In this document: one piece after another, positions 3,366 to 15,208 of the stretch | Layout: the number at the start of each line of letters is the position of its first letter | How positions within the stretch are numbered: the stretch's first letter is position 1 | Origin: Acidimicrobiales bacterium | GTDB taxonomy: Bacteria > Actinomycetota > Acidimicrobiia > Acidimicrobiales > RAAP-2 | Reading direction: 5' to 3' | DNA length: 37,367 nt | Assembly: GCA_017883135.1 (NCBI GenBank) | Contig: JADGOE010000028.1 | Span: 1 to 37,367 of the forward strand | Translations under genes and position numbers: made by a program | Notes under the pieces: model-generated | Databases searched by the model: none | What the model saw: only the letters and a program-made list of their open reading frames with translations | Told to the model about the DNA's origin: nothing

Positions 3366-4052
3366 TCAGCCTGCGTCGGTCACCAGGGCCGAGCGCAACA
3401 GATCGAGGATCTCGTTGCGCCGTCGCACCAGTGAACGGGCGGTCGGCTCCTCGCCGAAGGCGCGCAGCACCTCGACCTCGGTCAACATGCCGATCACCGT
3501 GGAGTAGATGGCCAGCAGCAACAGGCGGGGCTCGTGGCGGCGCATGTGCCCGGCATCCATCTCCGCTTCGAGGAACTCCGAGGCGCGCTTCACCAACGGG
3601 TCGAGCGCGGTGACGAAGCGAGTGGCGGCCGGGGTACCGAGGCGGCCCATCTCACGCACCAGCCCCACCAGCTCGGGTCGCCTGGCCGCCAGCCGGAACA
3701 CCGAACGGACCACCGCGTCCACTCGCGCCCACCCGCTGCCGGCGGAGGCGAGCGAGCCCTCCAACGCAGACGACAACTCGACGGCACTGCGGTCGATGAC
3801 CGCCTCGAGGAGGACCTCTTTGGAAGGGAACCAGTAGAGGATGGTCTGTTTGCGAACCTCGAGGCCCTGGGCCAGGGCATCGAGCGACGACGCCTCGTAG
3901 CCGCGGTTGGCGAACGAGGCCAGGGCTGCATCGAGGATGCGCTCGGAGGTGCTGGCTCCGTCGGGCCCCGACCGACCACCCGGAGGGACCGGACGGGGGC
4001 GGCTCCGATCGCGTCCTCCCGGGGCTGTCTCGCCCACTGTCGACTCGGTCAC
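3366..4052 (-). CDS. TetR/AcrR family regulator, divergent from the lipid operon
   Basis: A 228-residue TetR-family repressor. After an unusually long Pro/Arg/Gly-rich leader (about 1-33), the N-terminal DNA-binding domain is clear: SERILDAALASFANRGYEASSL, then an HTH reaching the LYWFPSKEVLLEAV signature. The C-terminal half is the ligand-binding/dimer domain and gives no hint of the ligand. The start is GTG at 4052; a second in-frame GTG lies at 4037. It diverges from the reductase-HAD gene with just 23 bases between start codons. That gap contains a perfect 12-base palindrome, so this protein very probably represses both itself and the operon. An acyl-CoA or other lipid effector is a reasonable guess from context only. 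Confidence 0.92.
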   Translation of the reverse strand: MTESTVGETAPGGRDRSRPRPVPPGGRSGPDGASTSERILDAALASFANRGYEASSLDALAQGLEVRKQTILYWFPSKEVLLEAVIDRSAVELSSALEGSLASAGSGWARVDAVVRSVFRLAARRPELVGLVREMGRLGTPAATRFVTALDPLVKRASEFLEAEMDAGHMRRHEPRLLLLAIYSTVIGMLTEVEVLRAFGEEPTARSLVRRRNEILDLLRSALVTDAG

Positions 4053-4053
4053 T

Positions 4054-4065
4054 TACCATATGGTA
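4054..4065. promoter_or_regulatory. Palindromic operator between tetR and the lipid operon
   Basis: The perfect palindrome TACCATATGGTA sits in the 23-base gap between the two divergent start codons (GTG at 4052 minus, GTG at 4076 plus). On the minus strand TACCAT ends 7 bases before the tetR GTG, as expected of a -10 box for a leaderless transcript. On the plus strand TAGACA (4064-4069) is similarly placed for the GTG at 4076. One bound TetR dimer could therefore block both promoters. The -35 elements would have to lie inside the opposing coding regions. Confidence 0.65.
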
Positions 4066-4075
4066 GACAGATCCG

Positions 4076-6520
4076 GTGACCCGCGTCCGCGACGCCCTGG
4101 CCGGCAAGCGCTTCTTCATCACCGGCGCCACCGGCTTTTTGGGAACTGCCCTGGTCGAGCGCCTGCTCCGGTGCGTCCCCGACAGCGAGGTAGTGCTCCT
4201 CATCCGACCCGGGCGCCGTGCCACCCCGATGCAACGGGCCACCAAGGAGATCCTCAAGAACGACTGCTTCGATCGGCTCCGCCAGCAACACGGGGCGGGG
4301 TTCGAGGCCGAGGTGGCCTCACGTGTCTCGGCGGTCGCCGGCGACGTGGCGACCGACGGTCTCGGCCTCGACGAGGAGGGGCGCCTCTCGATGTCGGAGT
4401 GCGACATCGTGGTGCACTCGGCGGCATCGGTCAGCTTCGATTCGCCTCTCGACGCGGCTGTCGAGGTCAACCTGCTCGGACCCTCGCGAGTGGCAGCAGC
4501 CATGGTGGCCGCCAGGCAGCTCGCCGAGCACCAGGGTCGCCTCGGTCCGGTCCATATGATTCCGGTCTCCACCGCCTATGTGGCCGGCACGCATCAAGGC
4601 GAGGCCAAAGAGGAGTTGTTGGACGCCAACCCCTTCAGCGTGGAGGTGGACTGGCGCACCGAGGTCGACGCGGCCAGACGCCAGCGGGGCGATACCGATG
4701 CCGAATCCCGCCGTCCCAAGCGACTGGTCCAGTTCAACAAGGAGGCCCGCGGAGAGCTGGGAGCAGCCGGCCTGCACCTCCTCGCCGAGCGGGCCGAGCG
4801 GCTCCGTGAGGACTGGGTGAAGAAGCAGATGGTCGAGGCGGGCAAGGCGCGGGCCCAGTCACTCGGGTGGCCCGATGCCTACCCGTACACCAAAGCCCTC
4901 GGTGAGCGGGCCCTCGTCTCCCAGTTCGGGGACATCCTCCCCATCACCATCATCCGGCCGTCGATCATCGAATCGGCGCTGGCCGAGCCCCGCCCGGGCT
5001 GGATCCGCGGCTTCCGGATGGCGGAGCCGATCATCATCTCCTACGCCCGGGGCCTCCTGCGGGAGTTTCCGGGTGTGCCCGAAGGGATAACCGACGTGAT
5101 CCCGGTCGACCTGGTGGTGGCCGCCATCATCGCCGTGGCCGGCGAGAGCCTCATCGAACCGGCAGAGAGCTACCAGGGGCCGACCGTGTACCACGTCGCC
5201 TCCGGGATCCGGAACCCGTTCCGCTACGGGCGCCTGGTGGAGCTGGTCACGGCGTGGTTCACCGAGCACCCCCTCTACGACAGCGACGGCCAGCCCATCG
5301 TGGTGCCGGCCTGGTCGTTTCCGGGTCGGGGTCGGGTACAGCGCCAGCTCACACGAGCGAGCCGAGCGATGGACCTCGCCGAAAAGTTGGTGGGCTCGCT
5401 GCCCATCCGGGGCCGGCAGGCCGAGTGGATGGCCGCCCTCGAAGAACAGCACCTCCTCGCCGATCGGGCCCTCGGCTACGTCGAGCTCTACGGCGCCTAC
5501 ACCGAGACCGAGGCCCTCTACCGGGTGGACCGCCTGCTGGCCCTGTGGGACCGGATGGACGACGACGACCGCCAGACCTTCTGCTTCGATCCCGCCGCAG
5601 TGGACTGGGAGACCTACATCCGCGACATCCACCTTCCGTCGATCATCGAACACGCCCGGGTCCGTACGACGCCGGGCAGGTCGATCAAGCCCAACCGATC
5701 CGAGCGGGCGCGCAAGGCCATCCTCTCCCCCGATCGACATCTGGCGGCGTTCGACCTCGAGAACACGCTGATCGCCTCCAACGTGGTCGACTCATACGCG
5801 TGGCTCGCTTCGCGCCACCTTCCCGCCGGGGAGCGCGCTGCCTTCGTGGCCGACCTGCTGGGGGAGGCGCCGTCGCTGCTCGCCCTGGACCGCCGCGACC
5901 GTGGCGACTTCCTACGCTCCTTCTACCGGCGTTACGAAGGAGCGCCCGTCGACCGATTGCGGGACGACGGCTGGGAGCTCTTCCACCACCTGCTACTGGC
6001 AAAGTCGTTTCCCGCCGGAATCGCACGTGTCCGCGAGCACCGGGCCCTCGGGCACCGCACCATCTTGATCACCGGTGCCCTCGATTTGGTGGTCGAGCCA
6101 CTGCGACCACTCTTCGACGACATCGTCTGCGCTCGCCTCGGCGAAGCCGACGGCAAGTTCACCGGCCGGCTCGAGGAGCTGCCCCCCATCGGGGAGGCCC
6201 GGGCCCTGGTACTGGCCGACTACGCGGAGGCCGAAGGGCTCAAGCTCGAAGAGTCGATGGCCTACGCCGACTCGGCGAGCGACCTTCCCATGCTCGAAGC
6301 GGTCGGCTTTCCGGTGGCGGTCAACCCCGAGGCCAAACTGGCCGCCATCGCTCGGCGACGCGGCTGGCACGTGGAGAACTGGCACAAGGCCGACGGAGGG
6401 TCCCAGCCTCTGCTGCCGCTCGGGCCCCTCGACCGACGGGGCTCCCTCCGGCGTGGTCGCACCAGTCCGGCGGCACTCGCCGGCTCCATCCGGCGGAACG
6501 CCGATGGGGGTCACCGATGA
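4076..6520 (+). CDS. Acyl-thioester reductase-like SDR fused to a HAD-IB domain
   Basis: An 814-residue fusion. The N-terminal part (about 10-400) is an extended SDR of the male-sterility/thioester-reductase (fatty acyl-CoA reductase-like) type. It has the nucleotide motif GATGFLG (17-23), the HSAASVSFD segment, and the catalytic pair Tyr269-x3-Lys273. A linker of about 150 residues leads to a C-terminal HAD-IB (phosphoserine-phosphatase-like) domain: motif I FDLENT (Asp560, Glu562), motif II ILITGALD, motif III ADSASDLPML (Asp732, Asp736). The second motif-I Asp of HAD phosphatases is Glu here, so the phosphatase activity may be altered. Inferred role: reduce an acyl thioester to aldehyde or alcohol, possibly coupled to a dephosphorylation. 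The GTG start at 4076 gives a probably leaderless mRNA. The stop overlaps the next start by 4 bases (ATGA). Confidence 0.85.
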   Translation: MTRVRDALAGKRFFITGATGFLGTALVERLLRCVPDSEVVLLIRPGRRATPMQRATKEILKNDCFDRLRQQHGAGFEAEVASRVSAVAGDVATDGLGLDEEGRLSMSECDIVVHSAASVSFDSPLDAAVEVNLLGPSRVAAAMVAARQLAEHQGRLGPVHMIPVSTAYVAGTHQGEAKEELLDANPFSVEVDWRTEVDAARRQRGDTDAESRRPKRLVQFNKEARGELGAAGLHLLAERAERLREDWVKKQMVEAGKARAQSLGWPDAYPYTKALGERALVSQFGDILPITIIRPSIIESALAEPRPGWIRGFRMAEPIIISYARGLLREFPGVPEGITDVIPVDLVVAAIIAVAGESLIEPAESYQGPTVYHVASGIRNPFRYGRLVELVTAWFTEHPLYDSDGQPIVVPAWSFPGRGRVQRQLTRASRAMDLAEKLVGSLPIRGRQAEWMAALEEQHLLADRALGYVELYGAYTETEALYRVDRLLALWDRMDDDDRQTFCFDPAAVDWETYIRDIHLPSIIEHARVRTTPGRSIKPNRSERARKAILSPDRHLAAFDLENTLIASNVVDSYAWLASRHLPAGERAAFVADLLGEAPSLLALDRRDRGDFLRSFYRRYEGAPVDRLRDDGWELFHHLLLAKSFPAGIARVREHRALGHRTILITGALDLVVEPLRPLFDDIVCARLGEADGKFTGRLEELPPIGEARALVLADYAEAEGLKLEESMAYADSASDLPMLEAVGFPVAVNPEAKLAAIARRRGWHVENWHKADGGSQPLLPLGPLDRRGSLRRGRTSPAALAGSIRRNADGGHR

Positions 6521-7782
6521 AGGCACTGGTCTTCGAGCGGAACCTCCCCCGGTTTGCCGCCTCACGGGTGGCGTCGGTGTTCGGTTCGGGTCGGGGCGCG
6601 GGCATCGGCCCACTGCAGCTGCTCGAGTGCGAACCTCCCGAACTGCCCGGCGAGGGATGGCACCACCTGCGGCCCCTGCTTTCCGGTATCTGCGGCTCCG
6701 ACCTGGCCACACTGGACGGGCGCAGCTCCCGCTACTTCGAGGACATGGTCAGCTTCCCGTTCGTGCCGGGCCACGAGGTGGCGGGCATCCTCGACAGCGG
6801 TGGGGTCGACCACGCGGGCAGGCCGCTGGAACCCGGTGCCCGTGCGGTGATCGAGCCGGTACTGGGCTGTGCCCCGCGTCACATCCGCCCCCTCTGCCCG
6901 CAGTGCGCCGGGGGACACACCGGGTTGTGTGGCAATGTCGCCTTCGGGGACCTCGCTCCCGGGCTGCAGTCCGGATTCTGCGCCGATACCGGGGGCGGGT
7001 GGTCGACCGCCGGCCTGGTGGCCCACTCCTCGCAACTACACGCCGTCCCCGAGGGATTCTCCGACGAGGACGCCGTCATCATCGAGCCCACCGCGTGCGC
7101 GGTGCATGCCGCGCTCTCCGCCGGTATCGAGAACGACGACCTCGTGGCGGTCATCGGGGCGGGTACCCTCGGGCTGACCACCGTGGCCGCACTGCACCGC
7201 GTGGTGCGGCCCGCCACCTCGTGCACGGTCATGGTCGGGGCCAAGCACGCCCATCAGCAGAAGTTGGCCGCGACCCTCGGCGCGGACACGGTGGTCCACC
7301 CCGATCAGCTCGCACGCTCCGTGCGCAAACGCGCCGGCTCCCTGGTGCTGGCCGGGCGGTTGACCAACGGCGCCGACGTGGTCTTCGACTGCGTGGGCAC
7401 CGCCGAGTCGCTGACCCAGGCCCTGGCCATGGTCCGGCCCCGCGGCCGGGTGGTGCTGGTAGGGATGCCGGGCAAGGTGTCGGTCGACCTGGCTCCCCTC
7501 TGGCATCGCGAGCTGACCCTGGTGGGTGCCTACGCCTACGGAACGGAATCCAGTGCGGACTCGGGGACCGCTGACTCGGGGACAGCGGACGCCGTCCGCC
7601 CGCGGCGGAGCTTCGAGCTGGCCATCGAGCTGGTGTCCGCTGCCGGGCTCGGGAGGCTGGTGTCGGCCGCCTATCCCCTCGAACGCTACGACGAGGCCAT
7701 CGCCCACGCCGGTGCTGCCGGCCGCCGGGGCGCGGTGAAAGTGGTCTTCGACCTTCGCAACCCGAAAGGAAGCACCCGATGA
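6517..7782 (+). CDS. Zinc-dependent alcohol dehydrogenase (MDR family)
   Basis: A 421-residue medium-chain dehydrogenase/reductase. Catalytic zinc ligands are visible: Cys59 in GICGSD, His86-Glu87 in GHEVAG, and Glu190 in IIEPTACAVH. Four structural-zinc cysteines are spaced as Cys118, Cys127, Cys130 and Cys138. The Rossmann motif is GAGTLGL (214-220). The protein is about 60 residues longer than a typical MDR, mainly through an N-terminal extension and insertions, including a repeated ADSGT stretch near the end. It should oxidise an alcohol or reduce an aldehyde with NAD(P). Placed directly after an acyl-thioester reductase, it could handle the aldehyde or alcohol from that step, or a polyol headgroup. 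It overlaps both neighbours by 4 bases, so translation is probably coupled. Confidence 0.88.
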   Translation: MKALVFERNLPRFAASRVASVFGSGRGAGIGPLQLLECEPPELPGEGWHHLRPLLSGICGSDLATLDGRSSRYFEDMVSFPFVPGHEVAGILDSGGVDHAGRPLEPGARAVIEPVLGCAPRHIRPLCPQCAGGHTGLCGNVAFGDLAPGLQSGFCADTGGGWSTAGLVAHSSQLHAVPEGFSDEDAVIIEPTACAVHAALSAGIENDDLVAVIGAGTLGLTTVAALHRVVRPATSCTVMVGAKHAHQQKLAATLGADTVVHPDQLARSVRKRAGSLVLAGRLTNGADVVFDCVGTAESLTQALAMVRPRGRVVLVGMPGKVSVDLAPLWHRELTLVGAYAYGTESSADSGTADSGTADAVRPRRSFELAIELVSAAGLGRLVSAAYPLERYDEAIAHAGAAGRRGAVKVVFDLRNPKGSTR

Positions 7783-9368
7783 GCCCCAGGCCCGGATTCG
7801 TGCTCGACGTCGACCGCTCGACCCCGCCCACCCTCTTCTGGCACGGCGAGCGGTTCAGCCTCGAGCGTCTTCCCGAGGGCAGCCGGGTGATCTATGCGCC
7901 CGAGCCGATCGACCCGTTGCAGGACCCCTCGGCCGCCATCCGGGCAGCGCTCAACTACCCGGTCGGTGACAGCGACCCGCTCCCCTCCCTGCTCCGCCCG
8001 GGCATGAGGCTGACCATCGCCTTCGACGACATCTCCCTGCCGTTGCCGCCGATGGAACGACCTGACATCCGCCAGCTGGTCATCGAGCAGGTGCTCGACA
8101 TGGCCGCCGAGGCCGGCGTCGACGACGTGGTTCTCATCGTGGCACTCGCCCTCCATCGGCGGATGACCGAACCGGAGCTTCGCCACGCCATCGGGGACCG
8201 GATCTACGACGCGTTCGCCCCCGCTGGGCTGTTGACCCAGCACGATGCCGAGGACCCGGATGCCCTGGTCCACCTCGGCCTCACCGATGAAGGGGAGGAC
8301 GTCGAGATCAACAAGCGTGCAGCGGAGAGCGACCTGTTGGTCTACGTCAACATCAACCTGGTGGCCATGGACGGCGGCCACAAGAGCGTCGCCACCGGCC
8401 TGGCCAGCTACAAGAGCCTGCGCCACCATCACAACCCGTTGACGATGCAGAAGAGCCGATCGTTCATGGACCAGCACCGTTCGGAGCTGCACTCGGCCAA
8501 CTGGCGGATGGGGCGCCTGATCGCGGCAGCCGGTGTGAAGGTCTTCCAGATCGAGACCACCCTCAACAACGACACCTTCCCCGAGGCCTTCCGATTTCTC
8601 CAGAAGCGCGAATGGGAGTGGAAGGCCAAGGATCGCATCGGGTACCTGGCGGCGTCCAAGGCCCTCGACCGGACACCGGCCCGCTATGCGCGCCAGATCT
8701 TCCACTCGGTGAAGGCCCCCCATCGGATGACCTCCGTGCAGGCCGGGGAGGTCGAAGCCGTCCACGCCATCACCACCGAGCACGTGTGGGAGCAGCAGGG
8801 CGTGATCGTCGAAGGCCAGACCGACATCTTGACCATGGGTCTCCCCTACATCAGCCCCTACAACGTGAACTCCATCCTCAACCCGATCTTGGTGGCGTGC
8901 CTGGGCCTCGGGTACTTCTTCAACCTCTACCGAGGCAAACCGCTGGTCCGCGAAGGCGGGGTCCTGATCATGACCCACCCCACCCGTTGGGAGTTCAACC
9001 CGGTCCACCACCCGAGCTACATCGACTTCTTCGAGCAGGTGTTGAGCGAGACGACCGACCCCGTCGAGGTGGCGGATCGGTTCGAAGAGGGGTTCGCCAC
9101 CGACCCGTGGTACATCCATCTGTACCGCACTGGGCACGCCTACCACGGCGTCCACCCGTTCTACATGTGGTACTGGTGCGCCCACGCGCTCCAGCACCTG
9201 GGCGCGGTGATCATCGTCAGGGGTGACCAGGCAGCCGTGCACCGTCTCGGGTTCCGGGCTGCATCCACCCTGGCCGATGCGCTCGAAATGGCCCGCGACG
9301 TCGTCGGGCCGTCGCCGTCACTCACCCACCTCCACGCCCCCCCGCTCCTCATGGCCGACGTGCAGTGA
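7779..9368 (+). CDS. LarA-like (lactate racemase domain, DUF2088) protein
   Basis: A 529-residue member of the LarA superfamily, nickel-pincer-cofactor racemases of 2-hydroxy acids. Visible landmarks are the early Asp-rich loop FDDISLPLPP, ALALHRRMTEPEL (His126, matching LarA His108), and GGHKS (Lys202, matching the cofactor-bearing Lys184). A His cluster at 216-218 sits 16 residues after the Lys, as LarA His200 does. The residue 10 before the Lys, where LarA has its second catalytic His174, is Ile here. Ordinary two-base racemisation is therefore doubtful. The C-terminal half is longer than in LarA and less conserved. No larB, larC or larE maturation gene is present in the window. It overlaps both neighbours by 4 bases in the TetR-controlled operon. 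Its role is unknown: a hydroxy-acid or polyol epimerase-type step is an inference. Confidence 0.75.
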   Translation: MSPRPGFVLDVDRSTPPTLFWHGERFSLERLPEGSRVIYAPEPIDPLQDPSAAIRAALNYPVGDSDPLPSLLRPGMRLTIAFDDISLPLPPMERPDIRQLVIEQVLDMAAEAGVDDVVLIVALALHRRMTEPELRHAIGDRIYDAFAPAGLLTQHDAEDPDALVHLGLTDEGEDVEINKRAAESDLLVYVNINLVAMDGGHKSVATGLASYKSLRHHHNPLTMQKSRSFMDQHRSELHSANWRMGRLIAAAGVKVFQIETTLNNDTFPEAFRFLQKREWEWKAKDRIGYLAASKALDRTPARYARQIFHSVKAPHRMTSVQAGEVEAVHAITTEHVWEQQGVIVEGQTDILTMGLPYISPYNVNSILNPILVACLGLGYFFNLYRGKPLVREGGVLIMTHPTRWEFNPVHHPSYIDFFEQVLSETTDPVEVADRFEEGFATDPWYIHLYRTGHAYHGVHPFYMWYWCAHALQHLGAVIIVRGDQAAVHRLGFRAASTLADALEMARDVVGPSPSLTHLHAPPLLMADVQ

Positions 9369-10411
9369 GCCCGAGGCCCGGATCCTCCAACTCGTTGCGT
9401 CCCCGGCGGGCCGTGCGCACCGACGCCAGCCTTGGCACGAGCGAACCCGGGGCGGGCTCGGCAAGGGTGCGCGCCTCCCTGCACCGGCTGACGCCCGCCG
9501 CGGTGGCGGCCCGGCTGGGCAGAAGCAGGTTCCCGCTGGCTGCCCCCAGCTGGCCCGAATCGATCCCCCGGCCGGCTCCGGCACCAGAACTGGGCGTGCA
9601 CTACGACACGGCCTGGTCGCGGAGGTACCCGGTGCGCCTGGCTCGAGCAATGGTGCTGGACAACGTGACCCGGCCGGTGGCCCGGCTGGTCGCTTCGCCG
9701 CTGATCCGGGGCGAGGAGGTGCTCAAGGGGATCGAGGCGCCGGTCATCTTCGCGGCGAACCATGCCAGCCACATCGACACGCCCCTGCTCCTCAGCTGCC
9801 TCCCCCTGCGCTTCCGGCACCGGACCGTGATCGCCGCGGCCGCCGACTACTTCTTCGACCGGCGGTGGAAGGCCGACGCCTGGTCGTTCCTGCTGGGTGC
9901 CATCCCCATCGAGCGGACGAAGGTCAACCGACGCTCGGCCGACCTGGCCGCGGACCTGCTGGCCGACAACTGGAACCTGGTGATCTTCCCCGAAGGAGGT
10001 CGGTCTCCCGATGGATGGGCACAGACCTTCCGCGGCGGCGCTGCCTATCTGGCCGGCCGCACCGGGCGACCGGTGGTGCCGGTGCACCTGGACGGCACCC
10101 GGCACATACTCCCAAAGGGGAGGAACTCCCTACGCAGGTCCCGGACCACCGTCACCTTCGGCACTCCTCTCTGGCCCGAGGAGGGTGAGGGCGCACGCCG
10201 CTTCGGAGGGCGAATCGAATCCGCGGTGGCCACCTTGGCCAACGAGGCCGGTTCGGACTGGTGGACGGCTCGCAAGCAGGCAGCGTCCGGGGACACCCCC
10301 TCGCTGCAAGGTCCCGACGCGGCAACCTGGCGACGGTCGTGGATGCTCTCGTCTGCCCCCGAGCGCCGGGACACCGATGACGGCGTGGAGTGGCCGAAGA
10401 TGGCTCGCTGA
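9365..10411 (+). CDS. PlsC-like 1-acylglycerol-phosphate acyltransferase family protein
   Basis: A 348-residue protein with an LPLAT/PlsC acyltransferase domain (about 110-310). Motif I is NHASHID (His133-x4-Asp138), motif II is around ERTKVNRRS, motif III is FPEGGRSPDGW, and motif IV contains VVPVHLDGT. It transfers an acyl chain to a glycerol-phosphate-type or related hydroxyl acceptor at the inner membrane face. About 110 N-terminal residues precede the domain, which is longer than minimal PlsC. The GTG start at 9365 overlaps the LarA-like stop by 4 bases; no better start is nearby. It is the last gene of the TetR-controlled operon, which suggests the product is a membrane lipid. It converges on gatD with 63 bases between the stops. 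Confidence 0.85.
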   Translation: MSPRPGSSNSLRPRRAVRTDASLGTSEPGAGSARVRASLHRLTPAAVAARLGRSRFPLAAPSWPESIPRPAPAPELGVHYDTAWSRRYPVRLARAMVLDNVTRPVARLVASPLIRGEEVLKGIEAPVIFAANHASHIDTPLLLSCLPLRFRHRTVIAAAADYFFDRRWKADAWSFLLGAIPIERTKVNRRSADLAADLLADNWNLVIFPEGGRSPDGWAQTFRGGAAYLAGRTGRPVVPVHLDGTRHILPKGRNSLRRSRTTVTFGTPLWPEEGEGARRFGGRIESAVATLANEAGSDWWTARKQAASGDTPSLQGPDAATWRRSWMLSSAPERRDTDDGVEWPKMAR

Positions 10412-10474: not shown

Positions 10475-11284
10475 TCAACCCCGGCGACGGAGCAGCCGGC
10501 GCACGACGTCGCGCCGGCCCGACTCGTGCACCACGGCCAGCCGTTCGGCGCGCAACGCCAACTCCTCGGTGTCGTCCAGCGGCTCGAGAGACTCGCGCCC
10601 ACCCGGACCGGACAGCGCCCAACCCAACAAGAGGTCGGCAAGTGCCGTGTTGCGGGCCAGAACCGGGCCATGAAGGTACGTGCCCACCACCCGGCCTGAC
10701 CAGGCGCCCTCGCCCCCGTCACCTGCGCCGTTCCCGACCCCTTCGACCACATGGGACAGCACCCGCGCCCCGGCGCCCACCGAGGTCACCCCCCCATGGT
10801 TCTCGAAGCCGGTGAGCCGTGGCAGCGATCCACCGTCGGGCGAACGCGGTCCATCGGAGGCCACCGTCGCGACGAGCTCGCCCACCGCCCGCGTACCGGT
10901 GCCCTTGCGGGTCCGCACGTCGAGCAGGCCGAGGCCCTGGTGGGACCGGTCCTCACTATCGGGGAAGGATCCTCCGAGCAGTTGGAACCCGGCGCAGACG
11001 CCGAACACGACTGCACCTCGGTCCGCGGCCCCTACTAGCGTCCCATCCTCGCGGAGGGCGGCGGCGGCACGAACCTGAGGGCCGTCCTCGCCACCCCCGA
11101 TGCAGTAGAGGTCGGCGGTGGGCAGCGGCCGGCCCGAGCTCGCCTGGATCAGGTCCGTGTCGATGCCGCGCCACGACGCCCGGCGGGCCAGAACCAGTCC
11201 GTTCCCCCCGTCCCCGTAGGTACCGAGCAGGTCGGGGTAGACCACGGCGATGGTGAGTGGGGAGCTGCGGGCTGCCGTGGTCAC
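10475..11284 (-). CDS. gatD: Lipid II isoglutaminyl synthase, glutamine amidotransferase subunit GatD
   Basis: A 269-residue class I (CobB/CobQ-like) glutamine amidotransferase. The nucleophile is Cys97 in FGVCAGFQLLGG; the catalytic His205 is in GTYLHGP; FENHGG is the substrate-loop signature of GatD/CobQ-like proteins. GatD releases ammonia from glutamine for MurT, which amidates the D-Glu alpha-carboxylate of the lipid II stem peptide to D-isoglutamine in the cytoplasm. The GTG start at 11284 overlaps the murT stop by 4 bases, as expected for an obligate complex. The length is normal. CobQ is excluded by the short length and the adjacent murT. Confidence 0.93.
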   Translation of the reverse strand: MTTAARSSPLTIAVVYPDLLGTYGDGGNGLVLARRASWRGIDTDLIQASSGRPLPTADLYCIGGGEDGPQVRAAAALREDGTLVGAADRGAVVFGVCAGFQLLGGSFPDSEDRSHQGLGLLDVRTRKGTGTRAVGELVATVASDGPRSPDGGSLPRLTGFENHGGVTSVGAGARVLSHVVEGVGNGAGDGGEGAWSGRVVGTYLHGPVLARNTALADLLLGWALSGPGGRESLEPLDDTEELALRAERLAVVHESGRRDVVRRLLRRRG

Positions 11285-12663
11285 AGTTGCCTCCCCAGCT
11301 CGGCGAAGGCGGTGTAATTCCCGAGGAATTCGATGGGGTCCGGGGCGGCGGCCCCCAGGTCCGGGGCAGCGGCCGTGCCCGCAGTGATCGAGGTTCGCAT
11401 GGCCACCGCCCGGTCGAGCGCCGCCAGGGGCCCGGCGACCACCGTGTGGGACACCTCCGCGTACCGCAACCGCACCGCCAAGTCGAGACGCCGATCACCG
11501 GTGGCCACCACCGGCCGTCCGGCCAGGCGCTCGAAGGGCACGTCCCACAGCCAGCTGGGGTCCAGCCCGTCGGCGATGCGGGCGTTGACCGAGAGGACTA
11601 CCGGGGCTCCGCTCGGTGCACCCTCGTCCAGAAGGTCGAAGATGGCGGTCCAACCGGCCGGGTTCTTGGCCAGCAGCAGACGTACCGGTTGCCCCTTCCA
11701 CGACGTGGAGGAGAACCGGCCGGCCACCTCTTCGACCAAGGGGAGGCGGGCCAGCACCGCAGAGAGTGGAAGCGGTGCTGCAGACCCGCCCGGTGGCCCC
11801 GCACCGGGCATCACGGTCGCAGCGAGGGCGACCATGGCGGCGTTTGCCCGGTTGAACTGGCCGGGGAGGCCCAAGGACAGCACGTGCCGTGAGCGATCGG
11901 CCATGACCAGCTCGGCACCCTCGAGCCATGCATCGCGCTCCGGCCGAGCGAACTCGCACCGGTCGCAGGCCCACTCGCCCCCGGGGCCGAACTCGATCCT
12001 GCCGCCACAGGCAGGACAACCCACAGCATCGTCGTGCCACACCTGGCCAGCGCCCACCCAGAGCACCTGGGGTGCGGCCACGGCCGCCCACACCACCATG
12101 GGATCGTCAGCATTGGCCACCACCACCGTGGCGTGCTCACCCGGGCCGGCGTCACCGGCAAGGCGACCCAGGGCCGACCGCCATCGATCGACCAGCATCC
12201 TGACCTCGGCGATCCGATCGAGCTGGTCCCGTGACAGATTGAGCAGGATCACCACACGTGGGCGGCTCTCTTCGATCAGCCGGCCGAGGTAGCTCTCGTC
12301 CACCTCGAGCACCGCGGCTGTGGCCCGAGGCGACTCGACCAAGGCGGCCACGTGGCCGGCGGGCATGTTGGACCCGGTGTCATTGGTCGCGACGGCGGGT
12401 CCCTCCGCACCCGAGAGAGCCGCCACCATCAGGCGGGTGGCGGTGGTCTTCCCATTGGTGCCGGTGACCAGGGCCACGGCCCTGCCTCCGACCAGGGCGG
12501 CCAGCAGGGTGGGGTCGACGGCCAAGCCGGCCCGGCCGCCGGCCACCGTCCCGCTCCCCCGTCCGAGCAGCCGCGACAGCTGATTGACGAACCTGACCAC
12601 CCACGTGGCAACCGAGGCGCGGGCCGACAGGGTGCGTGGGTTCGCGACGGCCGTAACGGTCAC
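11281..12663 (-). CDS. murT: Lipid II isoglutaminyl synthase, Mur-ligase-like subunit MurT
   Basis: A 460-residue Mur-ligase family protein. The ATP P-loop TGTNGKTT lies near residues 68-75. A four-Cys zinc ribbon typical of MurT (CPAC...CDRC) is in the central domain, and the C-terminal DUF1727-type region contains LLLAKNPAGW and VLSVNARIADG. MurT activates the glutamate carboxylate of lipid II with ATP and receives ammonia from GatD. The GTG at 12663 is chosen because it overlaps the upstream HAD-PlsC stop by exactly 4 bases and precedes the family's N-terminus. A much longer open frame upstream is the shadow of the HAD-PlsC gene. It is co-transcribed with an acyltransferase gene upstream and gatD downstream. 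Confidence 0.93.
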   Translation of the reverse strand: MTVTAVANPRTLSARASVATWVVRFVNQLSRLLGRGSGTVAGGRAGLAVDPTLLAALVGGRAVALVTGTNGKTTATRLMVAALSGAEGPAVATNDTGSNMPAGHVAALVESPRATAAVLEVDESYLGRLIEESRPRVVILLNLSRDQLDRIAEVRMLVDRWRSALGRLAGDAGPGEHATVVVANADDPMVVWAAVAAPQVLWVGAGQVWHDDAVGCPACGGRIEFGPGGEWACDRCEFARPERDAWLEGAELVMADRSRHVLSLGLPGQFNRANAAMVALAATVMPGAGPPGGSAAPLPLSAVLARLPLVEEVAGRFSSTSWKGQPVRLLLAKNPAGWTAIFDLLDEGAPSGAPVVLSVNARIADGLDPSWLWDVPFERLAGRPVVATGDRRLDLAVRLRYAEVSHTVVAGPLAALDRAVAMRTSITAGTAAAPDLGAAAPDPIEFLGNYTAFAELGRQL

Positions 12664-14042
12664 GCGGTAGGTCGGGTGCGGGCGAGTTCCTCGTCCGTCG
12701 GGTCCCGCTCGAGGCGGGACTCCTCCGGCAACAGGTCGGCGATGGCCGCCATCAATGTGGCGGTGTCGGCGGCCGCGTCCTCGAGTCCGAGGCCGACGGC
12801 CGGTCCCACCGTGACAGTGACCCGGGGCGGGTGCTGCAGGGTGGCCACGTTCGGCACCTTGGACGATCGCGGCCAGACCTCCTCGGTACCCCAGACCCCG
12901 ATGGGGATGACCGGAGCCCCGGTCTCGGCGGCCAGACGGGCCGCCCCGGTGCGGCCCTTCAGGACCGGATCGAAGAACTCCGCACCCCGCGGGATCGTCC
13001 CCTGAGGGAGGACGACGACGACTTCGCCGGCGCGAAGTGCGGCGGCGGCCCGACGCATCGAGTCGGAGGACCCGCTCCCCCGCTCCACCGGAATCCCTCC
13101 CAGGGCCCGAGCCAGATGCCCGACGATCGGGGCATCGAAGATCTCCTGTTTGCCCAAGAAGCGGACCGGCCGGCCGAGCCGGGCCGCGACCATCCCGAGG
13201 GCCGCCACATCGAAGTAGCTCCGATGGTTCGACGCAAGCAGCACCGGGCCGGACTTCGGGATGTGATCGACGCCGGTCACAGTGAAGCGCGCATAGGGGA
13301 ACACCTCGGGCCGGAAGAACAGCCGCAGCAGGTGATAGGGCTCCAGTCCGACAACCGACGGGACGCCGGGGGCGCGGTCCCAGTACTCGAGGGGCCATCG
13401 TCGGGCCAAAGCCACCGCCGCCAACCGCGGGTCGGGGTTCAACGGGTGGGGATGGCCGACCTCATGCAGCAGGGGAAGGTCGAAGAAGCTGTCCGAGTAG
13501 GCATGGGAGGCCCCGAGGTCGACGCCGTGGTCGGTGGCCCACTGCCTCACTGCCGCCCGCTTGCCCACGCCCCAGACGAATCCACCCTCCAACCTGCCGG
13601 TGTAGCGACCATCGGACTCGGCGTAGCGGGTGGCGATCACCCCGTCGAACCCCAGCGCGTCGGCCAGGGGGGCAACGAGATCCACCGGGGAGGTCGTGGC
13701 CACCACAAGGGGCATTCCTTCGGCACGGTGAACGGCCAGGGCATCGAGGGCCCACGGTTGGACCAGGTCGACCAGGGGCTCCACCGCGCGCTTCCCCGCC
13801 CGGCGAACGGCGTCGGCAGAACGATTGCGCATCAGCGGGGCGGCGGCACGCGCCAACCCCATGAAGGGCACCGACTCGCCGAAGAGATCGTAGAACCGAT
13901 ACATGTACCGGTCGCCCGGAAGATGGCGACCGGTCGGCAGGACGCCCTCGGCCACCATCGCCTCGTGGAAGACCGGCCCACTGGCCGACCGGAGCAGGGT
14001 CCGGTCCAGATCGACGAACACCGCGCCTGACGATTCGGACAT
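12660..14042 (-). CDS. HAD-IB phosphatase / PlsC acyltransferase fusion
   Basis: A 460-residue bifunctional protein. The N-terminal HAD-IB domain (about 1-215) keeps the full motif I VDLDRT (Asp11, Asp13), motif II VVATTSP and motif III YSDSFFDLPLL. The C-terminal LPLAT domain (about 245-440) has NHRSYFD (His273-x4-Asp278) and VLPQGTIPRG, where the usual Glu of FPEGT is Gln. This is the architecture of mycobacterial PlsC-type proteins (for example Rv2483c), which are assigned to phosphatidic acid synthesis; the HAD part may dephosphorylate a lipid phosphate. The ATG is at 14042. Its stop overlaps the murT start by 4 bases, putting phospholipid acylation and peptidoglycan amidation on one message. 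A C-rich-loop RNA candidate lies in its upstream region. Confidence 0.88.
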   Translation of the reverse strand: MSESSGAVFVDLDRTLLRSASGPVFHEAMVAEGVLPTGRHLPGDRYMYRFYDLFGESVPFMGLARAAAPLMRNRSADAVRRAGKRAVEPLVDLVQPWALDALAVHRAEGMPLVVATTSPVDLVAPLADALGFDGVIATRYAESDGRYTGRLEGGFVWGVGKRAAVRQWATDHGVDLGASHAYSDSFFDLPLLHEVGHPHPLNPDPRLAAVALARRWPLEYWDRAPGVPSVVGLEPYHLLRLFFRPEVFPYARFTVTGVDHIPKSGPVLLASNHRSYFDVAALGMVAARLGRPVRFLGKQEIFDAPIVGHLARALGGIPVERGSGSSDSMRRAAAALRAGEVVVVLPQGTIPRGAEFFDPVLKGRTGAARLAAETGAPVIPIGVWGTEEVWPRSSKVPNVATLQHPPRVTVTVGPAVGLGLEDAAADTATLMAAIADLLPEESRLERDPTDEELARTRPTA

Positions 14043-14129
14043 GCGCTCACGCTACCGCCGACCCGAACGGGGTGGGAGACGAAACTGGGCCGGCCGCCAA
14101 GAGACCTGGCACTGCCGCATTCTGCCCTC

Positions 14130-14224
14130 GGACGCGGCGAAGGGACCACCAGGGGGGGTAGGCGGTCCCTTCGCACTGACTCAACCAGGAAAGGAGGGGG
14201 ATTCCTATGATCCTGTGGTCGTGA
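14130..14224 (-). ncRNA. Candidate 6C small RNA (two C-rich-loop hairpins)
   Basis: On the minus strand a start near 14224 would yield an RNA with two hairpins. Hairpin 1 pairs 14202-14206 with 14187-14191 (AGGAA/TTCCT), with a 10-base loop containing CCCCCTCC. Hairpin 2 pairs 14164-14174 with 14137-14147 (GCGAAGGGACC and its complement, 11 perfect pairs), with a 16-base loop containing seven consecutive C. Two stem-loops with C runs in the loops define the actinobacterial 6C RNA. A sigma-70-like promoter sits at the right distance upstream. Loop 1 has five rather than six uninterrupted C, and no U-tract follows. It could instead be a structured leader of the HAD-PlsC/murT/gatD mRNA. Confidence 0.6.
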
Positions 14225-14230
14225 AGTGAT

Positions 14231-14258
14231 CGTATAACACTCGCGAGCAATCAGTCAA
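14231..14258 (-). promoter_or_regulatory. Sigma-70-like promoter for the 6C-like RNA / murT operon
   Basis: Read on the minus strand, TTGACT (14258-14253) is followed after 16 bases by TATACG (14236-14231). This is one of the most consensus-like promoters in this GC-rich window. The predicted start is near 14224, directly before the first C-rich hairpin and about 180 bases upstream of the HAD-PlsC ATG. It lies back to back with the lysR promoter region. Confidence 0.55.
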
Positions 14259-14270
14259 GCAGCTTATGTC

Positions 14271-14283
14271 GATACCTGGTATC
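14271..14283. promoter_or_regulatory. Inverted repeat just upstream of the lysR-type gene
   Basis: GATACC-T-GGTATC is a perfect inverted repeat with a one-base centre, ending 10 bases before the ATG at 14294. TATCTT (14280-14285) overlaps its right arm and is placed as a -10 box for leaderless transcription. The repeat could be an autoregulatory site of the LysR-type protein, although LysR sites usually follow a T-N11-A pattern. Confidence 0.4.
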
Positions 14284-14293
14284 TTGATTAGCG

Positions 14294-15208
14294 ATGGAGC
14301 TCCGACACCTGCAGGCCCTCACCGCCATCAGCGACCATGGCACCTTCTCGGCTGCGGCCCAACACCTCGGGACGGTGCAGTCCAACGTCTCCGCCCACGT
14401 CGCCCGCCTCGAGCGGGAGCTGGGCGCCCCGCTGATCGACCGGTCCGACGGCCGACTCACCGAGGAGGGGCTGGCGGTGGTGGCCCGGGCCCGCCGGATC
14501 CTCTCCGAACTCGATGCCCTGGTCTCCGACGTTGCCGCCTGCAGGGACGAGGTGACCGGCACCGTGCGGGTGGGGATGATCGGTACCACCGCCCGATGGC
14601 TGGTCCCCCGGTTGATGGACGCCGCCCGTCAGCGCCACCCCAAGCTCCGCCTGGTGATCGTGGAGGGCACCAGTACCGGGCTGGAGCCCCAACTGGCCTC
14701 CGGCCAGCTCGATCTGGCCGTCTTGAACCTGCCGATGCCCGGCCGCGACCTGGTCGCCACGCTCCTCTTCGAGGAGGACCTGATGCTCGTGGTACCCGAG
14801 GGCCACGCCATGGCCACCCCTGATCGCCCCCTCTGCCTGGAGGACCTAGCCGAGATGGAGCTCCTCTTGCCCCTGCCCGGCACCTCCTTCCGCGATGAGC
14901 TCGATGCAGTCACCCTCCCCCTGGGGATCACCCTCCTTCCGGTCGCCGAGATCGACGGCCTCCGCCTGATCGCGTCGCTGACCTTCGAGGGGTACGGACC
15001 GGCCATCCTGCCCGCCACCGCCATCCCCGCCTTCCTCAGGTCCGAGTTCCACCCGGTGTCGGTCGAGGGCCTCCCCCGCCGGCGGGTCGGTGTGGCCCAG
15101 CGGAGCCGCGGGCTTCCCTCGGCGCCGACCCGTGCCCTGCTCGAGCTGCTCGGAGAGGTGGTGGCCATGCCAGAAGGCCGCCCCCAGGGCCTCCACGTGC
15201 CCGGCTGA
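14294..15208 (+). CDS. LysR-type transcriptional regulator
   Basis: A 304-residue LysR-family regulator. The N-terminal winged HTH (about 1-60) is typical: MELRHLQALTAISDHGTFSA, then an HTH ending in HVARLERELGAPLIDRS. The C-terminal substrate-binding domain starts around VRVGMIGTTARWLVP and contains LDLAVLNLPMPGRDLV. The effector is unknown. No Shine-Dalgarno sequence is seen before the ATG and TATCTT lies 8 bases upstream, so the mRNA may be leaderless. It diverges from the murT operon and 6C-like RNA and is followed by the secreted IPT-like gene, either of which could be a target. Confidence 0.93.
   Translation: MELRHLQALTAISDHGTFSAAAQHLGTVQSNVSAHVARLERELGAPLIDRSDGRLTEEGLAVVARARRILSELDALVSDVAACRDEVTGTVRVGMIGTTARWLVPRLMDAARQRHPKLRLVIVEGTSTGLEPQLASGQLDLAVLNLPMPGRDLVATLLFEEDLMLVVPEGHAMATPDRPLCLEDLAEMELLLPLPGTSFRDELDAVTLPLGITLLPVAEIDGLRLIASLTFEGYGPAILPATAIPAFLRSEFHPVSVEGLPRRRVGVAQRSRGLPSAPTRALLELLGEVVAMPEGRPQGLHVPG

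Follow-up and report, generated by a model that had tools for sequence, protein, structure and literature searches.

The DNA examined here (the window) is a stretch of 37,367 nucleotides from an Acidimicrobiales bacterium (JADGOE010000028.1), corresponding to contig C57 in a 98% complete genome assembly of 126 contigs and 2.96 Mb. It carries an operon of four genes, which encode a fatty acyl-CoA reductase (FAR) fused to a HAD phosphatase domain, a zinc-dependent alcohol dehydrogenase (ADH), a LarA-like enzyme dependent on the nickel-pincer nucleotide (NPN), and a PlsC-type acyltransferase, together with a divergent TetR-family regulator. The locus is organized as follows, with Pfam domain calls judged against the curated cut-offs.

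3366-4052, minus strand: divergent TetR-family regulator, 228 aa (Pfam TetR_N, 44.9 bits; cut-off 24)
4054-4067, no strand: predicted palindromic operator with the core TACCATATGGTA, in the gap separating the start codons of TetR and FAR
4076-6520, plus strand: FAR-HAD phosphatase fusion, 814 aa (Pfam; PDB 7eoz, 227 bits)
about 4118-5128, 5465-5635, and 5744-6298, plus strand: FAR, FAR C-terminal, and HAD domains of the fusion (Pfam)
6517-7782, plus strand: zinc-dependent medium-chain dehydrogenase of the polyol/threonine dehydrogenase kind, 421 aa (Pfam ADH_zinc_N, ADH_N)
7779-9368, plus strand: LarA-like NPN-dependent enzyme with a single catalytic His, LarAH14/15/16 family, 529 aa (NF052592)
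9365-10411, plus strand: PlsC-type (1-acylglycerol-3-phosphate) acyltransferase, 348 aa (PF01553, 68.5 bits; cut-off 23)

The original prediction set the start of the feature at 4053, which proved to be the first intergenic base past the TetR start on the minus strand; the first structural gene begins at 4076 on the plus strand. Pfam confirmed the enzyme domains that it had named, and the reductase can be refined to a FAR. The NAD_binding_4 (193 bits), Sterile (36.0 bits, cut-off 35.4), HAD (91.9 bits), and Acyltransferase domains all score above their cut-offs, as do ADH_zinc_N, ADH_N, and Lar_N, and the best PDB chain for the reductase, 7eoz, aligns over residues 5–529. Motifs were counted over tblastn matches with at least 85% query coverage, excluding loci L001–L013 and L119. 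The FAR motifs TGxTGFxG and YxxxK are present in 78/78 rows, save for a single Ser in place of the first Thr, and the PlsC motifs NHxSHxD and PEG in 36/36. FARs yield a fatty alcohol or aldehyde, and PlsC works on acyl- or alkyl-glycerol phosphate. The PDB chains near the zinc dehydrogenase include ketose reductase as well as xylitol, sorbitol, and threonine dehydrogenases.

Conservation was assessed in the best 80 of 569 confirmed LarA-like loci from a genome-contig scan (L014–L093; 70–94% identical), which are all close relatives because they are the top matches of the longer list. The named relatives of the window genome are mostly metagenome-assembled genomes of Acidimicrobiia or 'Actinomycetes'. 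Synteny across relatives had been set beforehand as the check that could overturn the prediction, and it was upheld: FAR, HAD, and ADH lie upstream of larA in this order at all 64 loci with sufficient contig, and PlsC lies downstream at 70 of 71, the exception being L071. The clustering of the four genes is far beyond chance. The three gene junctions in the window (ATGA, ATGA, and GTGA) are each a 4-base start/stop overlap, as originally described. Such overlaps are not general among the relatives, since ADH and LarA overlap in 13/80 loci and stand 1–296 bases apart in the others, as measured from alignment ends. A sigma-70 promoter scan found no site, and a terminator scan returned one terminator-like site against 2.1 expected.

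The control by a divergent TetR, another element of the original prediction, is borne out by its relatives. A divergent TetR homologue was detected by tblastn in 42 of the 56 loci where this could be tested. The start codons of TetR and FAR are separated by 23 bases, within which lies the palindrome TACCATATGGTA. The pattern TACCANNTGGTAGA has a single match in the window and no match in 100 shuffled sequences. The operator count was confined to the 65/80 loci that include 60 bases or more ahead of FAR; in 43 of these 65, TACCANNTGGTAGA is found exclusively at 16–114 bases upstream of that gene, several loci carry two copies, and the remaining 22 have no exact match. Among the 15 loci excluded, L031 shows a site at the locus edge, outside the 43/65 count. 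The gene set, its order, the regulator, the operator-like palindrome, and their conservation are established, and the four genes are best explained as one co-regulated unit.

The limits of this unit were delineated by searching for additional operon genes, both by clustering the called genes of 91 loci and by tblastn. Downstream of the operon, a GatD-like amidotransferase gene recurs in 32 of the 80 loci and a HAD-PlsC fusion in 24, both on the minus strand, while a LysR regulator recurs in 36 on the plus strand, mostly 3–9 kb past LarA. Since the first two lie on the opposite strand and LysR is distant, all three are taken as local synteny rather than as operon members. Part of the order conservation is a wider local synteny among close relatives, though the downstream genes recur less often than the core (24–36/80). 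In the distant family f25, which comprises Rubrobacter-like genomes (six fetched), FAR-HAD, ADH, and LarA stay together beside other neighbours. Pairwise protein identities correlate with r of 0.62 to 0.87, uncorrected for species relatedness, as expected from shared inheritance. A search of a plasmid collection with LarA gave one match, 22% identical. In the window itself, positions 10475-15208 after the operon hold the GatD-like gene, a MurT-like gene (assigned by eye), the HAD-PlsC fusion (12660-14042, minus strand), and the LysR regulator; the GatD-like and LysR homologues are backed by Pfam.

The LarA-like protein, the sole Lar_N match of its genome (Pfam, 135.6 bits), belongs by score to the NCBIfam family NF052592, which covers LarAH14/15/16 of the groups of Desguin et al. 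2020 (893.6 bits against a cut-off of 740; residues 7–529 on profile positions 1–520), and shares with it the NPN-binding Lys, His, and Asp. Active-site columns were set by alignment to 9q2u and LarA and counted over 122 operon-type sequences. The ribose-binding Asp84, the first catalytic His126, the NPN-binding Lys202, and the nickel ligands His217 and His218 are invariant (122/122), and Tyr361, His456, and His459 are kept in 97% or more of them. At the site of the second catalytic His (His174 in L. plantarum LarA), 120 sequences have Asn193 and two have Cys. The Arg that binds the cofactor phosphate and the substrate carboxylate (Arg75 in L. plantarum LarA) is replaced at position 87 by Leu, Ile, or Cys in all 122, and by Leu in the window. 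The protein thus retains the residues expected of the NPN-dependent LarA superfamily and lacks the second His and the Arg of canonical 2-hydroxyacid racemases and epimerases. An ordinary lactate racemase was ruled out by these altered active-site residues together with an NF033504 (lactate racemase) score of 73.5 bits, below the cut-off of 460. A Frankia LarAH14 protein displayed none of seven racemase or epimerase activities (PMC7583248), and no substrate of the tested LarAH14 enzyme was found in the literature searched. Because the second His and the Arg are lost and the Frankia protein was inactive in seven assays, an ordinary hydroxy-acid or polyol epimerase is an improbable identity for the LarA-like protein; its residues suggest that it is probably an NPN hydride-transfer enzyme other than a normal 2-hydroxyacid racemase.

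The AlphaFold model of this protein, built from 40 sequences, has a predicted local distance difference test score of 86.4, falling below 50 at residues 86–88 and 359–364. Its nearest structures are 9q3k (Z 39.5, root-mean-square deviation 2.4, 455 residues) and 9q3j (Z 36.4), compared with Z of at most 32 for ordinary LarA. These closest solved structures are the single-histidine LarA proteins of Blautia and Streptococcus (9q3j, 9q2u/9q3k), which in the alignment share the His-to-Asn exchange. Their description reports an octameric His-to-Asn LarA subfamily and groups 14 and 15 lacking that His (PMC12611868). The resemblance has its limits, in that the window protein is only about 20–26% identical to them, the gene neighbours differ, the Arg position is occupied by Lys in the single-histidine LarA and by Leu in the window protein, and His306 of the former aligns with Pro360 of the latter, in the low-confidence segment 359–364 of the model. 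A protein called LarAH15 in a 2024 paper is a D-gluconate epimerase with a pocket like those of known GntEs (PMC11770544), although its numbering may differ from that of the 2020 groups.

The whole NPN-cofactor route is encoded in the genome. NCBIfam matches were obtained for LarB (203 bits, cut-off 175), LarC1 (185.5, cut-off 90), LarC2 (102.8, cut-off 50), and LarE (292, cut-off 150). The larB and larC genes are adjacent and overlapping on contig C26 (L189:2702-4995, minus strand; L188:4226-5077, plus strand), and larE lies about 14 kb from them on the same contig. Co-inheritance was examined in a phylum sample of 396 genomes, 86 with LarA over the cut-off and 310 without, including a class subset of 38 (21 with, 17 without). 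In the class, LarC is found in 19/21 genomes with LarA and 0/17 without (Fisher p 1e-8, uncorrected for relatedness), and the full-length FAR-HAD in all six carriers tested of the 21 and in none of the 17 non-carriers, five of which match the HAD part only. Both counts track LarA, so that within the class sample LarC and the operon are present or absent together. Across the phylum, LarC occurs in 76/86 genomes with LarA and in 172/310 others.

The Rubrobacter-like family provides a link to ether lipids. In five of its six loci, LarA has FAR-HAD and ADH no more than a few kilobases away, and PlsY stands directly upstream of FAR-HAD in all six genomes by tblastn (confirmed by Pfam in L138, L143, and L186); PlsY gave no tblastn match in the window or in loci L014–L093. 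In two of these genomes, the cluster also includes a protoglobin-like gene, located after ADH (L142:11667-12323, Pfam Protoglobin 133 bits; L159:11804-12394, by eye). About 46% of the core lipids of Rubrobacterales are reported to be ether-linked (PMC10821996, citing Sinninghe Damste et al. 2023). AGPS matches in one genome of the family, G041, and in three others are weak only (22–34% identical, E 3e-15 or weaker), and the same four genomes gave no DUF2229 match. We tentatively take G041 to be Rubrobacter xylanophilus. If this identification is right, the known ether-forming enzymes other than ElbD, which was not searched for, went unfound there, and the module is present. Sinninghe Damste et al. 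reportedly proposed in 2023 a putative operon for 1-O-alkyl glycerol phosphate in Rubrobacterales, which possibly has the same core, the Rubrobacter-like genomes carrying PlsY, FAR-HAD, ADH, and LarA.

Considering these findings, the product of the four-gene module may be a glycerolipid derived from a fatty alcohol, with a 1-O-alkyl (ether) or mixed ether/ester glycerophospholipid as the most likely candidate; to this reading we assign an even chance. A glycerolipid role is supported by the pairing of FAR with PlsC, or with PlsY in the Rubrobacter-like genomes, and by the ether-lipid link. The unusual-lipid product of the original prediction is retained to this extent, whereas the hydroxy-acid/polyol epimerase chemistry it had invoked is disfavoured, since the protein has neither the second His nor the Arg that binds carboxylate. 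In the proposed route, the FAR domain would start from an acyl thioester and reduce it to the fatty alcohol (or aldehyde). The LarA-like protein, carrying covalently bound NPN and a single catalytic His, would abstract hydride from a secondary alcohol, probably at C2 of a glycerol(-phosphate) backbone rather than in a 2-hydroxy acid, and return it at another position of the substrate, so that the alkyl chain could be attached or its attachment completed. The zinc dehydrogenase would reduce or oxidize the same C2 carbonyl or alcohol with NAD(P)H, PlsC would acylate sn-2, and the HAD domain would remove a phosphate at some point, while TetR would repress the divergon until bound by an acyl-CoA-like or lipid signal. 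We infer every catalytic step, and those of the LarA-like protein and the zinc dehydrogenase are the least certain. The specific role given here to an NPN enzyme in membrane-lipid synthesis, with C2 hydride removal and return during attachment of the FAR-made chain and the dehydrogenase closing the redox cycle, is a tentative and rather doubtful proposal.

Other ways of making ethers were considered alongside this route. In a classical scheme, an AGPS encoded elsewhere would convert the FAR alcohol to 1-O-alkyl-dihydroxyacetone phosphate, ADH would yield 1-O-alkyl-glycerol-3-phosphate, and PlsC would act at sn-2, leaving the LarA-like protein a side role. The genome itself encodes two AGPS-family proteins, each with AGPS as its best solved relative (L165, 219.6 bits; L166, 158 bits), and the related genome G382 has an AGPS gene a few kilobases away from its operon; a looser search of ten carriers added sub-threshold matches in G134 (E 4e-52, a 54% identical stretch with an internal stop), G188 (5e-41), and G284 (2e-36). 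Orthologues at E ≤ 1e-60, however, occur in only 8/86 genomes with LarA and 58/310 without, so that AGPS is, if anything, rarer with LarA, and carriers G041, G011, G053, G026, and G080 yield only matches in the weak range given above. We regard this scheme as unlikely, and an obligatory AGPS partner was rejected on the same counts. An AGPS-family gene on contig C63 of this genome (L187:5395-7284) lies just upstream of a complex-I-like gene (Proton_antipo_M, Oxidored_q6). Ester reduction of the Ger/PlsA type, which we take to involve a DUF2229-type domain, was rejected for eight genomes, in which DUF2229 was found in 0/8 with a positive Thermotoga maritima control.

Different products were also weighed. 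The characterised LarA homologues of two reports act at C2 of 2-hydroxy acids (PMC7583248, PMC11770544), and FAR and PlsC would suit the later steps of a pathway in which LarA isomerizes a long-chain 2-hydroxy acid, FAR forms a 1,2-diol, and PlsC acylates it; the exchanges of the carboxylate-binding Arg for Leu, Ile, or Cys and of the second catalytic His for Asn make such a 2-hydroxy-fatty-acid or 1,2-diol lipid quite unlikely. The FAR family would equally fit the supply of alcohol to WS/DGAT for wax esters or neutral lipids, with the other genes degrading or balancing the alcohol, and WS/DGAT is present in 12/20 operon genomes, with five matches in the window genome. It is absent from the other eight, including all five Rubrobacter-like genomes tested and G080, on which ground wax esters were rejected as the general product; moreover, PlsC and PlsY indicate glycerol phosphate, and the NPN enzyme would be left without a reason. 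We therefore consider this reading improbable. Improbable to the same degree is a non-lipid pathway, for carbohydrates or secondary metabolites, with a different thioester as the FAR substrate: ADH resembles polyol dehydrogenases, and gene context tentatively ties 9q2u/9q3k and 9q3j to carbohydrate metabolism (PMC12611868), yet a full-length FAR with its C-terminal Sterile domain adjoins PlsC or PlsY.

Several observations weigh against the glycerolipid reading. A second LarAH14/15/16-like branch (L124–L137, 39–43% identical) has no FAR, ADH, or PlsC nearby in 14/14 loci, within fetched stretches that are in some cases short on one side; because homologues of about 40% identity stand apart in this way, the LarA-like fold alone implies no lipid role. 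Two genomes of the class, G263 and G294 (98% and 96% complete), keep LarA and FAR-HAD with no LarC match, and 10 of the 86 LarA genomes in the phylum sample are without LarC. In the sixth Rubrobacter-like genome, G065, LarA is separate from FAR-HAD, and the window PlsC query found no match around LarA in 6/6 loci of that family. HAD phosphatases usually have D-x-D at motif I. Of the 84 rows for the fusion, 76 show D-x-E, seven D-x-D, and one a gap (the window has D-L-E), which renders its phosphatase activity uncertain. Since AGPS-family proteins are encoded in the window genome, an AGPS gene lies near the operon in G382, and AGPS-like matches occur in G134, G188, and G284, the known AGPS route could supply ethers in some carriers. 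Finally, the ether link leans on a tentative identification of a Rubrobacter genome, and we know of no lipid described from an operon-bearing member of the Acidimicrobiia.

The preferred glycerolipid reading places the operon near known systems while differing from each. With the animal-type FAR1-AGPS-AGPAT pathway it shares a FAR, a candidate ketone-reducing dehydrogenase, and an sn-2 acyltransferase, whereas AGPS lies outside the operon and is not co-distributed with it. The elb operon of Myxococcus xanthus (PMC9131029) likewise has an acyltransferase and a HAD hydrolase besides its FAR domain. In that report, ElbD joins FAR, acyl-CoA synthetase, acyl carrier protein, and acyltransferase domains, while the present fusion holds only FAR, FAR C-terminal, and HAD domains; PlsC is separate here, ADH and the LarA-like protein replace NAD-dependent epimerase-type proteins and ElbC, and elb is described there without LarA. 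No paper in the limited collection searched was recognised as describing this gene set. The earlier statement that no characterised pathway has it accordingly fits the literature consulted, subject to the Rubrobacterales operon mentioned above. We file the operon as a variant of ether/fatty-alcohol lipid clusters in which the NPN enzyme is the unusual part.

The question bears on ether-lipid synthesis in aerobic bacteria that lack AGPS, and one conserved, compact module would tie the LarAH14 enzymes to it. If the reading is true, the module would represent an AGPS- and Ger-independent ether-lipid route using proteins distinct from those of the elb route, spread over Acidimicrobiia, the Rubrobacter-like genomes, and further families in the phylum. 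It would point to genes that may make the ether lipids found in Rubrobacterales and predict ether lipids in many uncultured Acidimicrobiia, whose genomes were assembled from bogs, palsas, and soils, among others. It would also, as far as we know, give the NPN cofactor its first role in lipids and add lipid polyols without a carboxylate as a substrate class for NPN biochemistry.

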